From: a virus
Length of the DNA: 51,757 nt
Direction: 5' to 3' (one strand)
IMG/VR virus record: IMGVR_UViG_3300036717_000008
Span: 1-51,757 of that record
Below, in pieces: positions 24,957 to 39,669 of the stretch. Numbering within the stretch: position 1 is the stretch's first letter; every line of letters starts with the position of its first letter. Under the pieces are notes generated by a model that had not been told where the DNA came from, searched no databases, and worked only from the letters and a program-made list of their open reading frames with translations. The position numbers were made by a program, and so were the translations under genes.

Positions 24957-25033
24957 TGGTTCCAGAGGCAAGGCTTGAACTTGCTACTCACTATTTAGTA
25001 ACTAGTGCGTTTTACCAATTAAACTACTCTGGA
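24957..25033 (-). tRNA. tRNA with encoded CCA; anticodon probably ACU, loop atypical
   Basis: A full cloverleaf on the minus strand: acceptor TCCAGAG/CTCTGGA (7 bp), D arm GTTT/AAAC with GG in the loop, T arm GCAAG-TTCAAGC-CTTGC, discriminator A, and an encoded CCA end. The anticodon stem is CACTA/TAGTG with a nine-base loop GTTACTAAA. If the outer G and A stack as a mismatched pair, the seven-base loop TTACTAA reads ACU (24999-24997, serine codon AGU). The variable loop is short, unlike normal tRNA-Ser, so identity is uncertain. It lies in the leader of the replication operon. Confidence 0.7.
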
Positions 25034-25153
25034 AGTCAAGTTTGCTATTAGAGATTATCGTGGGAATACGCATAACTTCACGTTATAAAACCATAAACCA
25101 CTATACCTTATGTTACTGTTCAACTATAGGTATTAAGCCAGCTCAGTATTTAG

Positions 25154-25236
25154 ACAGGTGAACAACCTGTATTCTGACTGCAATCACAATCTTCTATTAG
25201 ACAGAACTAATAGACACGGAGTGTATCAACAGTCAG
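25154..25236 (-). ncRNA. Structured leader RNA upstream of the tRNA
   Basis: Between the promoter and the tRNA lie nested perfect stems: CTGACTG/CAGTCAG (25174-25180 with 25230-25236) enclosing hairpins TCTATTAG/CTAATAGA (25193-25200, 25207-25214) and ACAC/GTGT (25214-25217, 25221-25224, sharing one base). A further hairpin ACAGGT/ACCTGT is at 25154-25170. The whole stretch 25034-25395 has no open reading frame. A closing stem around small hairpins recurs in other leaders of this genome. Function unknown. Confidence 0.5.
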
Positions 25237-25395
25237 TGGCTAGGGGATGAGAGAAATTATTTCTTCACTCGGAGAATGTATAATATGGCAAGTGAACATC
25301 CTAGAAATGATCCTAAGATGTTGGAAAAGACAAGCTCAGAGAAATGAATTGTCATATTGTGGTTAAAGAATTTAATAGTTGTGGCAATATTATGT

Positions 25396-25413
25396 AAGCA
25401 AGAATCGTGCCAA
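25396..25413 (-). promoter_or_regulatory. Sigma-54-type promoter for tRNA and replication genes
   Basis: Minus strand TTGGCACGATTCTTGCTT: a near-perfect match to the sigma-54 -24/-12 consensus TTGGCACG-N4-TTGC, with GG-N10-GC spacing. It lies 62 bases downstream of the end of the phage AAA+ activator gene and reads into the structured leader, the tRNA and the replication operon. Confidence 0.8.
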
Positions 25414-25474: not shown

Positions 25475-26368
25475 TTAGATCTTTTTCAACACACTGTATC
25501 GTTTAATTATTTGTTCGAGTGACCTAACATTAAGTTCAAGTTTAAACTCGGAAGACATAATCATATCTCGGAAGGATCCATTCAATAGTTCAGCTACATC
25601 TTTTTCTTTATGGAGGATCTTCCCAATCTCTTGCATGATGTCTGGTATATCACATCTTCTCTCTCTCAAAGGTTTGATCTTAAGAACAAAGGTTGATATA
25701 CGAGCGTAAAGATCAAGCCTAAACAACTTATCATTAACCATCTCCATTAAGTTACGATGTGTAGCACATACTATTCTACAGCTAATCTCAACCTCTTCTG
25801 TACCACCAACAGGACGTATGTATCGTTTACCATCTATTGGCTGTAATGCATTTAATAGCTTAGCTTGAATCTCAAGTGGCAAATCACCAACCTCATCAAG
25901 AAACAATACTCCACCTTTAGCAACTTCCATCATCCCTTTCTTGTCAGTCATTGCACCAGTAAATGATCCTTTCTTATGTCCAAATAGCTCTGATTCAATC
26001 AATTCTTTTGGCATTGCAGCACAGTTGATACGACAGAATTTAGCATCTCGATCACCAATCATGGCGCGAGCTATCAACTCTTTACCAGTACCAGTCTCAC
26101 CTAAGATTAAGACTTCATCGTCAATCATTGATAACTTACGAGCATCATCTTTTAAAGCTACAGTATCAGAGTCTATTGATATGAATTTATTGAGCCATGT
26201 CTCACATCCAGGAGTTGTGTTTAACAGGACAGGTTTGTCATCACGAATCTCAATTTTATAAGGTAACTTAAATGCAGCAATGTGCATCTTAGCACCATCA
26301 ATTAGATTATTCTGCAACATCAAGTTCAGAATATCTACCGGATCACTTTGTTGTGGATTGTTGGACAT
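25475..26368 (-). CDS. Sigma-54-dependent transcription activator, AAA+ domain only
   Basis: A 297-aa bacterial enhancer-binding-protein core. Walker A GETGTGKE (residues 90-97), sigma-54 contact loop GSFTGA (134-139), Walker B VLFLDEVGDLP (154-164), sensor I RIVCATHRNL (198-207), arginine-finger region FRLDLYARIS (216-225), sensor II LNVRSLEQ (279-286). The family remodels the RNA polymerase-sigma-54 closed complex by ATP hydrolysis. The first 80 residues are not a receiver domain, and the protein stops right after sensor II, so the usual C-terminal Fis-type HTH is missing. With at least eight sigma-54-like promoters in the genome, it is the probable phage switch protein. Confidence 0.85.
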   Translation of the reverse strand: MSNNPQQSDPVDILNLMLQNNLIDGAKMHIAAFKLPYKIEIRDDKPVLLNTTPGCETWLNKFISIDSDTVALKDDARKLSMIDDEVLILGETGTGKELIARAMIGDRDAKFCRINCAAMPKELIESELFGHKKGSFTGAMTDKKGMMEVAKGGVLFLDEVGDLPLEIQAKLLNALQPIDGKRYIRPVGGTEEVEISCRIVCATHRNLMEMVNDKLFRLDLYARISTFVLKIKPLRERRCDIPDIMQEIGKILHKEKDVAELLNGSFRDMIMSSEFKLELNVRSLEQIIKRYSVLKKI

Positions 26369-32297: not shown

Positions 32298-32316
32298 TTG
32301 GTTGTGGTTAACTAAG

Positions 32317-32394
32317 TAGAATCAATAATAATTTATTGATTCTAGTTAATTGACATACTCTACTGTGTATGTCAGACAGTGCTAGGGTCAATTA
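32317..32394 (-). promoter_or_regulatory. Two hairpins after the 214-aa gene
   Basis: TAGAATCAATAA/TTATTGATTCTA (32317-32328, 32333-32344) is a perfect 12-bp hairpin with a four-base loop. Next to it TAATTGAC/GTCAATTA (32347-32354, 32387-32394) encloses GACATAC/GTATGTC; the outer stem overlaps the stop codon of the 214-aa gene. The hairpins lack a clear T-run, so partial termination or RNA 3'-end protection is more likely than a strong terminator. Confidence 0.5.
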
Positions 32395-33036
32395 CTCAGG
32401 ACGAACAGTGTCCGTCTCAACCTCCTTAGACTTCTTGTTAATCCGCTCGTCATACTCAGCTTTACGCTGAGTCATGATAGCACCGAGCTTGGTGAATTTC
32501 TCACCAATAGCTTTGCGTTCCTCGTCAGTACGGGCTGCAATCATGTCAGTAACAAACTGAGTTTGAGCACTGGTATAAGTTGCAATTGCTTCATCCAACA
32601 GTTCCCGCAATTCAGAGATACGCAACTGAGCAACAGAGAAGTCTTGGATACTACGCAAGAACTTGTCCAGCTGAAACACACCCTTTTGTTCACCTGCGTC
32701 AGGAATAGCATCAAGATGTGCATCTTGTGCAAACCGTTTACAGAAGATGTTCAGAATGGTCTGAACCTTCTCTTTCGAGATGAACCTCAAACCATTAAGG
32801 AAGGTTTCATCTTGTTCAATGAGCTTACCATCTTCCACATTGATCTGTGGAGCTTGATAAACAATACCATCCCAATTGCCACGTTTACCCGCAAATGGTG
32901 TCAATGGAAGTTTAACTCCATTACGTTCCACGACATAAGGTTTGACCTTACTAAGGTCAGGAGCAACCTTTTCAGTGGTAACAGGAGGAGGCAATGGAAC
33001 AGTAGGAGCAGTATGTTGATGTTCGTGTTCAGACAT
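32392..33036 (-). CDS. Hypothetical protein directly behind a sigma-54-like promoter
   Basis: A 214-aa protein: a Pro-rich N-terminus (PTVPLPPPVTTEKVAPDLSK), a middle globular part, and a long charged helix at the C-terminus (ERKAIGEKFTKLGAIMTQRK). It is the first gene after the promoter at 33142-33159, is set off by hairpins at its 3' end, and has slightly more GC-rich codons, all consistent with a strongly expressed protein. No family is recognised. Confidence 0.55.
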   Translation of the reverse strand: MSEHEHQHTAPTVPLPPPVTTEKVAPDLSKVKPYVVERNGVKLPLTPFAGKRGNWDGIVYQAPQINVEDGKLIEQDETFLNGLRFISKEKVQTILNIFCKRFAQDAHLDAIPDAGEQKGVFQLDKFLRSIQDFSVAQLRISELRELLDEAIATYTSAQTQFVTDMIAARTDEERKAIGEKFTKLGAIMTQRKAEYDERINKKSKEVETDTVRPE

Positions 33037-33733: not shown

Positions 33734-34357
<624 letters not shown>

Positions 34358-34423
34358 TTTCTTATATTTTTTATTGATTTGGTTAAGAGACAAATTATGA
34401 TGCTCCAGACTAGAGCGTGGAAT

Positions 34424-35626: not shown

Positions 35627-36181
35627 TTAAAATGGGTATTGTATAATTTCTCGTATTTTGTCAGCTTGCCATTTCCATTCATTAATAGGAGACCAACCAA
35701 CACCAACACCAACACTCAAGACAGCATAATAAATGGTCGTGGAAGTCATATGAGTAATGTTTTCATAGTGAGTATACATAGTTGAACGAGCTGCACATGA
35801 TGCAGCATGTGCAGCTTGTTTAGCACTATAATCAATTGATAATACGGCAGCCTCACAAGCCCCAAAGCTAGCTTTATCGGCTTCATTAACGGTAATATAT
35901 GATGGCTCTGTTAACCAACGCTTCGCTGCTTCAATTGCTTGTTTTGGTTTATTATTTTCAGGGTATTTTTCTTCAAACTTAAATAATACATGCTCTGCAC
36001 AAGCAATTGCGATCTTGACTGAATGATCTTTGTTTAAACGATTAGTTTTTCTTAAAAACCAAATCAACCAATTTCCATGGTGACACTCATTCCATGCACG
36101 TATTGGATCATAATCAACTGATTCCATGAATTGAATAGATTCATAGCACGGGTTTAAGTCTAAAAATTCTTGTTTTGTCAT
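35627..36181 (-). CDS. Conserved phage protein with helical repeats
   Basis: A 184-aa protein with RAWNECHHGNWLIWFLRK, KIAIACAEHVLFKFEEKYPE, KQAIEAAKRWL and Ala-rich helices (ACEAAVLSIDYSAKQAAHAA). Proteins of this plan, rich in A-x-x-A-A helices, often accompany the DUF7666-like gene in phages. Role unknown. Confidence 0.55.
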   Translation of the reverse strand: MTKQEFLDLNPCYESIQFMESVDYDPIRAWNECHHGNWLIWFLRKTNRLNKDHSVKIAIACAEHVLFKFEEKYPENNKPKQAIEAAKRWLTEPSYITVNEADKASFGACEAAVLSIDYSAKQAAHAASCAARSTMYTHYENITHMTSTTIYYAVLSVGVGVGWSPINEWKWQADKIREIIQYPF

Positions 36182-36993: not shown

Positions 36994-37035
36994 AATTTTT
37001 GTTTCCTTTTGTTTTGTTATTTGTCAACTGAGAGT

Positions 37036-37054
37036 AATGCACAGATTTTCACCT
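37036..37054 (-). repeat. 19-nt repeat, copy B (also 24001-24019)
   Basis: TAATGCACAGATTTTCACC, identical to the copy upstream of the 130-aa gene at 23603. It is 43 bases upstream of the 53-aa gene start. Confidence 0.55.
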
Positions 37055-37153
37055 ATGCACTATTGCTCATTCGACTTATTGAAGCAATCACCTCCAAAGC
37101 TCTTAACTAATAGAGGGACTTGACTGATATATCCAATTCATTTTCTTGGATTT

Positions 37154-37284
37154 CCATAATAGTTGAATGCTGAAGTCTAGTCTATGGTTCATAATGCACT
37201 ATGAAAACATTACTCACATTCGTTAGGGACATACAATACGCGAATATTGTTCTACCCTTAAACTTCAGCAGTCAACCATTATGG
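37154..37284 (-). ncRNA. Structured leader RNA with 23-bp closing stem
   Basis: 37154-37176 and 37262-37284 are reverse complements over 23 positions with only two mismatches. The 85-nt interior holds hairpins TTCATA/TATGAA (37188-37193, 37200-37205) and ACAATA/TATTGT (37233-37238, 37245-37250). It lies between the sigma-54-like promoter at 37372 and the first gene at 36993. This 370-nt leader has no open reading frame. Same plan as the 25174 and 30758 elements: long stem enclosing two hairpins. Confidence 0.55.
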
Positions 37285-37371
37285 TTATCTATTTACAGTC
37301 ATCAGACATCCTAATTGTGCTCGTCACACACTCACCTATTCGGATAGTATTCCAGTGAGATATGGTTAACC

Positions 37372-37389
37372 AAGCATATTACATGCCAA
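37372..37389 (-). promoter_or_regulatory. Sigma-54-type promoter for the accessory block
   Basis: Minus strand TTGGCATGTAATATGCTT, GG-N10-GC. It would drive the structured leader and the small-gene block below 36993. Confidence 0.7.
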
Positions 37390-37550: not shown

Positions 37551-37607
37551 AAAATAAAAAGCCGGACTAAAGTGAGCTTTTGTAAGCTGCTAACTCTAGC
37601 CCGGCTT
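37551..37607 (-). terminator. Intrinsic terminator of the 131-aa gene
   Basis: On the minus strand AAGCCGGGCTAGAGT pairs fully (with G-U wobbles) with ACTTTAGTCCGGCTT, with an inner AGCTT/AAGCT hairpin, and is followed by TTTTTATTTT. A strong rho-independent terminator just below the 131-aa gene, which separates it from the accessory promoter at 37372. Confidence 0.85.
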
Positions 37608-37627: not shown

Positions 37628-38023
37628 TTAGGGTTTTACCGGTTTCTCGTTCAGACTTGCCAAGTACTCTTCCTTAAACTTGGCTGCCCACACTTCGCAA
37701 CAGGCGGGAACATCGGCTTGGATGCCCATTTTATACACCGGTTCATCGGTGCTACCATTGTTGGCGATGCGGTTGATTTGCATGCCAAACAGCAACAATT
37801 GTGCCCATGCTGCATTCAACGGGAGTGAGAGAGTATGTCCCTCTTTCGATGTGATACGTCCCTTTGTCCCTACAGACCACCCGGTTGCTTTGGACACAAT
37901 GCTACCTTCCAGTCGTCCCACATTCGCCGCCGTGTCATTGACCAACTTGTCAAATGCGGGACCGAATTCATCGGAGAAACAGGACAATTCCGCACGAACA
38001 TTAAGGTTATTAATTTTGCTCAT
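37628..38023 (-). CDS. Hypothetical protein in its own transcription unit
   Basis: 131 aa from the ATG at 38023 (MSKINNLNVRAELSCFSDEF...), which is preceded by AGGAAAG, one of the few Shine-Dalgarno-like sites in the genome; a frame from 38062 is less likely. Central beta segments (WSVGTKGRITSKEGHTLSLP) and a helical end. More GC-rich than its neighbours, and closed by a strong terminator. The pattern fits a separately acquired, independently expressed gene. Function unknown. Confidence 0.55.
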   Translation of the reverse strand: MSKINNLNVRAELSCFSDEFGPAFDKLVNDTAANVGRLEGSIVSKATGWSVGTKGRITSKEGHTLSLPLNAAWAQLLLFGMQINRIANNGSTDEPVYKMGIQADVPACCEVWAAKFKEEYLASLNEKPVKP

Positions 38024-38231
38024 AATACTATCTTTCCTATACTCCATGCCCAACTTGTCCAAGGTTTGATTGTCGCCTGTGTCACATGTATTACCCCAAC
38101 AATGATGGATTAACCATGGTATGTTGGGTACGCCTTTGGCGGTTCAAATTGTCAAATAAGTTTAAGACATGGAAATTACCTTGTGTATAACCTTAAGTTA
38201 TTCCCTAATATCTACTCACGACGAAATTAAT

Positions 38232-38668
38232 TGTCATTAATCAGCTGTCTAATGACAGGTGACTAATCAGGTTATTCGCCGTGTGACCTATTGGATAGTG
38301 ACGCCTGACCGCCTGTCTTTCGGCTATGTAAGCTAGCGAGTGTCTATTGGCTCCTTAATCTAGCTGCCGTCACCGGCGTGTGATTGTGTCCTACTAACAG
38401 TCGATCAGGAGTCACTATCCAATCTGTCATACCCAATAGTCCGGCTATCGTCCGCTAGTGCCTTACGTTGTCTCCAGTCTCATAGTTGGTTCGCATGCTG
38501 TCTGAAGTGTCCTGCGTTGCACAGGGTGTCATCATGCGTCAATCTAACCGGGTGAGTACTAGCTATTGTCGCTTACTATATTGGGTGCGGTGGTCTATTC
38601 AGGGTGCTAGCCCTATACCTGCCGATCAGGTCCGCTATGTGCCGTAGCGCACTCATGTGTGCGGACCT
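38232..38668 (-). ncRNA. Large structured non-coding RNA candidate
   Basis: No open reading frame of note on either strand, about half GC between strongly AT-rich flanks, and dense with perfect stems: AGGTCCGC/GCGGACCT (38628-38635, 38661-38668) at the 5' end; ATTGGATAGTGAC/GTCACTATCCAAT (38290-38302, 38411-38423) extended by CCTGA/TCAGG; inside it CGGC..AGCTAG/CTAGCTGCCG (38321-38336, 38360-38369); TGTCATTA/TAATGACA (38232-38257) at the 3' end. A sigma-54-like promoter at 38675-38692 would start transcription at the first stem. Large ornate phage RNAs exist (GOLLD, ROOL), but I cannot place this in a known class. Confidence 0.6.
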
Positions 38669-38674
38669 TGCCGT

Positions 38675-38692
38675 TAGCTGTTATGATGCCAA
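38675..38692 (-). promoter_or_regulatory. Sigma-54-type promoter of the structured RNA
   Basis: Minus strand TTGGCATCATAACAGCTA, GG-N10-GC. Standard spacing puts the start point near 38665, at the first base-paired stem of the structured region. Weaker match at -12 than the others. Confidence 0.6.
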
Positions 38693-38743
38693 CACTATAT
38701 GTTGTAGTGTATTAACCATGGTGACACTACATGTGGTGGTTTT

Positions 38744-38761
38744 ATTGGCATAAAGATTGCT
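38744..38761 (+). promoter_or_regulatory. Sigma-54-type promoter facing the late arm
   Basis: TTGGCATAAAGATTGCTA, GG-N10-GC, about 925 bases before the first late gene. It is back-to-back with the minus promoter at 38675 and would transcribe the AT-rich tract. Confidence 0.6.
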
Positions 38762-38917: not shown

Positions 38918-39059
38918 CAAATAAATGTCAATAAATCTTACTTAACAGTCATAACCTGTTGATTTTGAACATAATCCAATTGTATCATAGCCTAATGAGT
39001 TAGGCTAAGTTAACTATTAAAATCCACCGAGTGCAACAGTTAGTATAACATTTCATTAA

Positions 39060-39370
39060 AGGTCTATATAACACTTTTCATTATTTTATATAAATAATTA
39101 ATTATAATATATATATAGTATACATACTTATATATTATATAATATATAACTTTATAAACTTTGGTTAAAAACGAAAATTTTATATAGACCAAAAGTAAAG
39201 TGAGTATTATATAAAACTTTAATAAGAAACTATACAAAGTTATATAATTAATAAGGTTTAATACTTAATTAAGCTTATTAACTATTAAGTAATCATTACT
39301 CAACACTAAGTAATCATTATTGATTAGTAAACATTACTAATTAACTGATTAGTAAGGTTTATTAAGTAAA
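39060..39370. other. Candidate replication origin: AT-rich tract with iteron-like repeats
   Basis: The stretch is almost pure A/T at 39090-39250 (runs such as TATATATATAG). It ends in related repeats: AAGTAATCATTA at 39287 and 39308 (21 bp apart), a diverged AGTAAACATTACT at 39326, and TGATTAGTAA at 39321 and 39346. TTACTAAT/ATTAGTAA forms an inverted repeat. No gene is present. An unwinding element beside iterons between two divergent arms is the usual origin layout. The initiator is unknown. Confidence 0.4.
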
Positions 39371-39548
39371 TCCGGTAATCAGGAAGTTGAAAATGAAAAC
39401 CAGAAAGTAAAACCCGAAACTTGACTATGCTATTCTCGAAATTTGATAAAAAATAAGTTTAGAAATATATAACAATATATAAATCCTATATAAACCCTAT
39501 ATACTAAATATATAATCTGTATATAACTATACAGAGATATTTTGTGAA

Positions 39549-39609
39549 TCTTTAACGTTAAAGAATAGTTCGTTAACGTTAACTCTTCTGTGTTAAACGT
39601 TAACGATAA
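39549..39609. promoter_or_regulatory. Enhancer-like array of three AACGTT palindromes, 21 bp apart
   Basis: AACGTT cores at 39554-39559, 39575-39580 and 39596-39601: centre-to-centre distances are exactly 21 bp, two helical turns. The first is a 16-bp palindrome (TCTTTAACGTTAAAGA), the second has GTTAACGTTAAC, the third AAACGTTAACGATAAC. They lie 56-98 bp upstream of the GG of the promoter at 39652, the normal place of a sigma-54 enhancer. Similar boxes occur at 25460, 33176 and 38762. Confidence 0.6.
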
Positions 39610-39651: not shown

Positions 39652-39669
39652 TTGGCATGAATCTTGCTT
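39652..39669 (+). promoter_or_regulatory. Sigma-54-type main late promoter
   Basis: TTGGCATGAATCTTGCTT, GG-N10-GC, close to consensus. It overlaps a possible ATG at 39657, which is therefore not a real start; the first late gene starts at 39687 near the expected transcript start. Confidence 0.8.

Follow-up and report, generated by a model that had tools for sequence, protein, structure and literature searches.

The minus strand of positions 38217-38666 (block A) of the window, by which we mean the whole 51,757-bp stretch of viral DNA analysed here, is predicted to form the structured front of a ~640-nt 5′ leader. This leader would belong to a single-gene transcript driven by sigma-54, and its fold would act in cis. 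We put the probability of this reading slightly above one half. An earlier note, made from the letters of the sequence, had described positions 38232-38668 as a large structured non-coding RNA. Its strong fold on the strand that the promoter would transcribe was recovered in our analysis, but no terminator was found at the end of the block, and the transcript would continue into a gene for a 131-aa protein. Block A would occupy the front two thirds of an untranslated leader of ~640 nt. The interpretation as a non-coding RNA therefore holds only in part, and a separate gene for such an RNA is not supported. The features discussed below are collected in Table 1.

Table 1. Positions of predicted features in the window.
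Feature	Position	Strand	Description
Phage-encoded sigma-54 activator	25475..26368	-	AAA+, GSFTGA loop; PF00158 E=6.7e-55
Sigma-54-type promoter, leader A	38676..38692	-	TTGGCATCATAACAGCT, GG-N10-GC, 2 mismatches to TTGGCAT-N5-TTGCT
Divergent perfect sigma-54-type site	38745..38761	+	Motif match
Structured block of leader A, corrected boundaries	38217..38666	-	z -5.58, 0/100 shuffles; main-arm helix probabilities 0.97-1.0
5′ hairpin	38628..38668	-	8-bp AGGTCCGC/GCGGACCT and inner 4-bp stem; predicted +1 within 5′ arm
Main arm	38290..38423	-	13-bp perfect stem 38411-38423/38290-38302; 8-bp and 5-bp helices inside
3′ domain	38217..38283	-	9-bp helix 38275-38283/38217-38225 (p 0.97) around 8+5-bp hairpin 38236-38267
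AT-rich remainder of leader A	38024..38216	-	~190-200 nt; z -0.4 for 38024-38231, no excess structure
Small gene	37628..38023	-	131 aa, ATG at 38023; homologues in G010 (44%) and G003 (31%)
Intrinsic terminator after small gene	37551..37605	-	dG -24.7, TTTTTATTTT tail
Sigma-54-type promoter, leader B	37373..37389	-	1 mismatch
Leader B	36994..37362	-	13+12-bp arm; z -5.86 vs -2.77 on other strand; before 53-aa gene
Sigma-54-type promoter, leader C	25397..25413	-	1 mismatch; same place in most relatives
Leader C	25034..25386	-	Conserved RNA, hairpin with invariant 11-nt loop TTGAAYAGTAA; then tRNA-Ser(ACT)
tRNA-Ser, anticodon ACT, terminal part of leader C	24957..25033	-	tRNA prediction
AT-rich repeat-filled block between divergent arms	38999..39600	.	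15-27% GC; AT-rich counterparts in relatives
Perfect sigma-54-type site before rightward operon towards terminase	39652..39668	+	Same place in most relatives

The window was taken from a viral metagenome record (IMGVR_UViG_3300036717_000008) and carries a 127-bp end repeat, because of which it was judged to be probably a circularly closed, complete genome. A 33.7-kb IMG/VR contig is 99.85% identical to it across the overlap. The capsid gene was found in 11 additional contigs, with protein identities of 46-82%. Nine of these, in which a terminase gene was found (G002, G003, and G005-G011), served as relatives, so that ten genomes including the window were compared. The closest named terminases are those of Akkermansia phages (25-28% identity). 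In the host search, the sole genome match was a contig (L077, JACTVG010000014.1) that had been assigned to the MAG of a methanogen from SPRUCE peat. It contains the capsid gene of a relative and is probably mis-binned, in view of sigma-54-type promoters. Among the other genes of the window, 33734-34393 (-) codes for a protein whose long tail is rich in Ala, Asp, and Tyr and consists of near-repeats (AAADAYAAAYAAYAAY...), and the protein encoded at 35627-36181 (-) matches Imm5-like immunity proteins (PF21805).

The folding energy of block A was compared with that of shuffled sequences. The minus strand of 38232-38668 gave -147.2 kcal/mol, against -117.2 ± 5.4 kcal/mol for the shuffles (z = -5.6, 0 of 100 shuffles), and the plus strand of the same stretch gave z = -3.6. 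When the whole window was scanned on both strands in 437-nt windows, 38232(-) was second of 314 by energy excess (-30.9), after 36961(-) in leader B (-32.5). Block A was not outstanding in a scan with 200-nt windows, which indicates that the signal resides in the entire block. At this window size, folding was strongest at 32301-32500 (z -7.2 on the plus strand), where long AT hairpins lie at the end of gene 32392-33036 and ahead of the next gene; this is perhaps a terminator region.

Most of the structural details given in the earlier note were reproduced. The stretch is gene-free, with no overlapping ORF longer than 53 aa. The 13-bp perfect stem is present (38411-38423/38290-38302) and is extended by helices of 8 and 5 bp, with pair probabilities of 0.97-1.0; a perfect inverted repeat of this length arose by chance in 1 of 200 shuffles. 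The 8-bp stems reported for each end were found at 38661-38668/38628-38635 and 38260-38267/38236-38243 (probability 0.98 for both). The boundaries had to be adjusted: the block lies where it had been placed, but the 9-bp helix 38275-38283/38217-38225 extends partly beyond it, and we therefore set block A at ~38217-38666. The GC content, claimed to exceed that of the flanks, is 0.51 compared with 0.15-0.30 on the right flank; the adjoining small gene is equally GC-rich.

Among 2.9 million viral contigs, block A has one homologue, which is identical across the block and hence carries no covarying pairs. Searches with DNA patterns for the main stem and for a motif shared with G005 (GGARCCAATARASACTCGCT) hit the copy in the window itself, G005, and an unrelated contig, and nothing else. 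The similarity to G005 was near the shuffle level and was rejected as a sign of homology. Leader-to-leader alignment revealed no homology of leader A to leaders B and C or to the leader of any relative; only the G006 and G007 leaders match each other. In computational terms the fold of block A appears genuine, and a cis role of the RNA would be deduced from its position.

In the AT-rich remainder of leader A, AATTTCCATG occurs at ~38170 and recurs in the leaders of G006, G007, and G010. The 131-aa protein encoded behind it gave no match in Pfam, PHROG or NCBIfam, and searches for further phages with its gene yielded G010 only. Its AlphaFold model (pLDDT 58) was too uncertain for a structure search. 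No intrinsic terminator was found on the minus strand from 38700 to this gene, i.e., nothing that would give an independent non-coding RNA its own transcript end; the sole one between 38700 and 37500 stands directly after the gene. None of the eight leaders examined contains a terminator, and in G010, G005, and G008 an equally strong one follows the gene at the same place. As the sole terminator follows the gene and none occurs within the leaders, we consider the promoter, long leader, small gene, and terminator to be one unit. With a promoter upstream, a conserved gene downstream, and a terminator behind the gene, it has the layout of a 5′ leader and would be read as a single continuous transcript.

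The unit is kept in the same place by most relatives, and the leader sequence and even the gene family vary. The GC content is raised over leader A and the 131-aa gene jointly. This rise and the different gene families at this place suggest that the unit, which lies next to the presumed origin, is an exchangeable cassette; the AT-rich block 38999-39600 is a possible replication origin. The leaders of the relatives are mostly more structured than shuffled sequences (z from -1.9 to -5.5, with -3.3 for G003; z = -3.6 for G010). In G009, the 81-nt stretch taken as the leader was not more structured than shuffles. In G002 and G003, folding of the leader is slightly stronger on the opposite strand, which means that the strand preference is not general. 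A vague resemblance of the G007 A leader to motifs of RNase P RNA (GAAAGTCCGGGC, GGGTGAAA) was dropped, as Rfam gave no confirmation.

A homologue of the sigma-54 activator is encoded in all ten genomes. The protein lacks a C-terminal DNA-binding domain, and its domain matches stop at residue 294 of 297. It shares the AAA+ sigma-54 interaction domain, the GSFTGA loop, and the missing C-terminal helix-turn-helix with PspF-like activators without a DNA-binding domain. In contrast to them, it is phage-encoded, present in all relatives, and accompanied by a phage-wide set of sigma-54-type promoters. FlgR of Helicobacter pylori is an example of a sigma-54 activator without a DNA-binding domain. In the ten genomes, 35 strict sigma-54-type sites were observed, with 1.2 expected from shuffles. 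Such sites recur before the capsid gene, the packaging operon, leaders A, B, and C, and gene 32392-33036; G010 has no strict site, and looser ones occur there. The activator in all ten genomes, together with the excess of strict sites at recurring places, makes sigma-54 control of this phage group likely.

The sigma-54-type promoter assigned to block A by the earlier note is thus supported by the phage activator and by the site excess, but the A site itself is weak, and three relatives have sigma-70-like sequences there. The TTGGCAT element and the GG-N10-GC spacing are present, the -12 element is CAGCT instead of TTGCT, and the two mismatches rank it with the window's weaker sigma-54-type sites. 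GG-N10-GC sites occupy the corresponding place in G002, G003, G007, and G008, and sigma-70-like hexamers, read by eye, are found there in G005, G006, and G010. The window itself has a sigma-70-like match (10 of 12) at 38796-38768. The start predicted near the first stem agrees with our estimate, since the GG-N10-GC site would set +1 at ~38665, inside that stem. Between the divergent sites 38692(-) and 38745(+), the stretch 38691-38745 contains two similar imperfect palindromes (CACTATATGTTGTAGTG and CACTACATGTGGTGG), which are possible regulator sites. A 15-bp repeat with one mismatch (ATTAACCATGGT) is found both in the promoter region (38708-38722) and in a leader hairpin by the gene start (38106-38120).

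Leader B has the same anatomy as leader A, i.e., a sigma-54-type site, a structured leader, and a gene downstream; the 53-aa protein behind it is basic. At the place of leader B, G006 and G007 have a tmRNA behind a sigma-54-type site. These tmRNA genes (L017 2997-3287 in G006 and L018 9551-9844 in G007) have an unusual predicted 29-residue tag (ANQDYAMSVAQADAVLAHYGYVDAGLVTV), the end of which is not the usual LAA. In most genomes, leader C is followed by a tRNA or by an aberrant tRNA-like structure ending in CCA. Its hairpin was found in the window, G002, G005, G008, and G010, and GTGAAGTT-N-CACGATAA was found in four genomes. In the stem, 6 of 7 pairs are changed on both sides, and the covariation score was 0.886 compared with 0.32 for shuffles (five sequences, hand-aligned on the loop). 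A hairpin of this type is absent from A and B, and block A has none of the other motifs either. Leader C is better supported than block A, and it is likely a new RNA class. The conserved and covarying hairpin indicates that this phage group does put conserved structured RNAs behind sigma-54-type promoters.

The mechanism that we infer for leader A is as follows. The phage would produce its own sigma-54 activator, which would trigger opening by the host's sigma-54 RNA polymerase at the GG-N10-GC site 38692(-). Transcription would begin at ~38665, and several stable domains would form in the initial 450 nt. Beyond them, the transcript would cross the AT-rich stretch, read through the 131-aa gene, and end at the terminator 37605-37551. 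The fold would act in cis, either by shielding the 5′ end of the mRNA or by timing the production of the small protein; given its position, a cis role is the most likely one. The leader explanation is supported by the fold of the transcribed strand beyond shuffles, by the 131-aa gene kept in G010 and G003, whose leaders also beat shuffles, by the same layout in relatives despite the change of gene family, and by the like anatomy of leader B. Several observations count against it. These are the poor -12 element taken together with the sigma-70-like sequences in three relatives and in the window, the identical copy as the only sequence homologous to block A, and the opposite strand preference in G002 and G003. 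In addition, an activator lacking a DNA-binding domain leaves its choice of phage promoters unaccounted for. Like structured 5′ leaders and cis-regulatory RNAs, block A lies between a promoter and the start codon of one gene, with a terminator behind. It is much longer than most of them, and neither a ligand, an antiterminator or a hidden ribosome-binding-site switch nor motif-defining homologues were identified for it.

Block A might instead be a stable trans-acting non-coding RNA, cut from the leader by ribonucleases of the host or the phage, or ending without a recognisable terminator. It would then work on its own late in infection, perhaps in the scaffold or sponge role that has been proposed for GOLLD and ROOL; a multimeric RNA cage and expression rising at lysis would be further criteria for GOLLD. 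The limitation of structure to the initial 450 nt, with the next ~200 nt at shuffle level, would fit such an RNA. So would the RNA genes in other sigma-54-type units, namely the tmRNA of G006 and G007 and, in leader C, the tRNA or tRNA-like ends and the covarying hairpin. We regard this reading as doubtful, because the 3′ end of block A has no terminator or recognisable processing site, the gene downstream is intact, Rfam gave no match, and block A is not conserved, unlike known functional non-coding RNA classes. It is unlikely that block A has no function at the RNA level and is GC-rich imported or decaying DNA, or a DNA element by the origin, with inverted repeats that fold incidentally and are simply traversed by the transcript. 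The GC content raised as in an acquired cassette, the non-transcribed strand that also beats shuffles, the unconserved leader sequence, and the strongly negative z of some genic windows are consistent with this. However, the two most structured 437-nt windows are leaders behind sigma-54-type promoters, both favouring the transcribed strand, and a long leader is kept here by most relatives.

The resemblance to no known RNA class, suggested in the earlier note, was borne out by Rfam searches at gathering and permissive thresholds, which covered the window region and 20 leader loci and gave no match for A. For GOLLD (RF02032), there was no match at E <= 10 in the window or the nine relatives, and none at the gathering threshold. 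ROOL (RF03087) gave no match either, although the control genomes of one search also lacked ROOL, which makes that search weak by itself. No tmRNA (RF00023) was found in the window. GOLLD and ROOL are large ornate phage RNAs often close to tRNA islands, and many GOLLD RNAs exceed 800 nt (PMC12286853). Block A is likewise large, highly structured, and phage-encoded, but it has ~450 nt, runs into a protein gene, and shows no conserved 3′ domain. ROOL, also large and ornate, is a class of phages and prophages, whereas the sequence of A is common to no other phage searched. The downstream protein gene without an intervening terminator argues against grouping block A with either class. That block A is a divergent GOLLD, ROOL or tmRNA is highly improbable and already largely refuted, since its size, phage location, and ornate fold, and the tmRNA that two relatives carry in the adjacent B place, stand against permissive covariance searches that found none in it and against the lack of tRNA-like ends or a tag reading frame.

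A limited search of the open-access literature, not a full review, did not turn up a phage family that combines a sigma-54 activator of its own with genome-wide sigma-54-type promoters, nor one in which such promoters lead into long structured RNAs. Read as the front of a cis-acting leader, block A would add a new structured leader, set in a phage context under sigma-54 control that is without precedent within this search. More speculatively, the phage lineage with its activator may have assembled a regulon under sigma-54, with several promoters from which large structured RNAs are transcribed (A, B, and C, which in some relatives include tRNA-like, tRNA or tmRNA components). A set of new non-coding RNAs, block A among them, would then be induced jointly during a single infection stage. 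Block A is of less importance by itself, unless selection on its fold becomes evident from a relative or an experiment. If true, these phages would offer a simple, testable system for the infection stage placed under sigma-54 and for the role of structured leaders.
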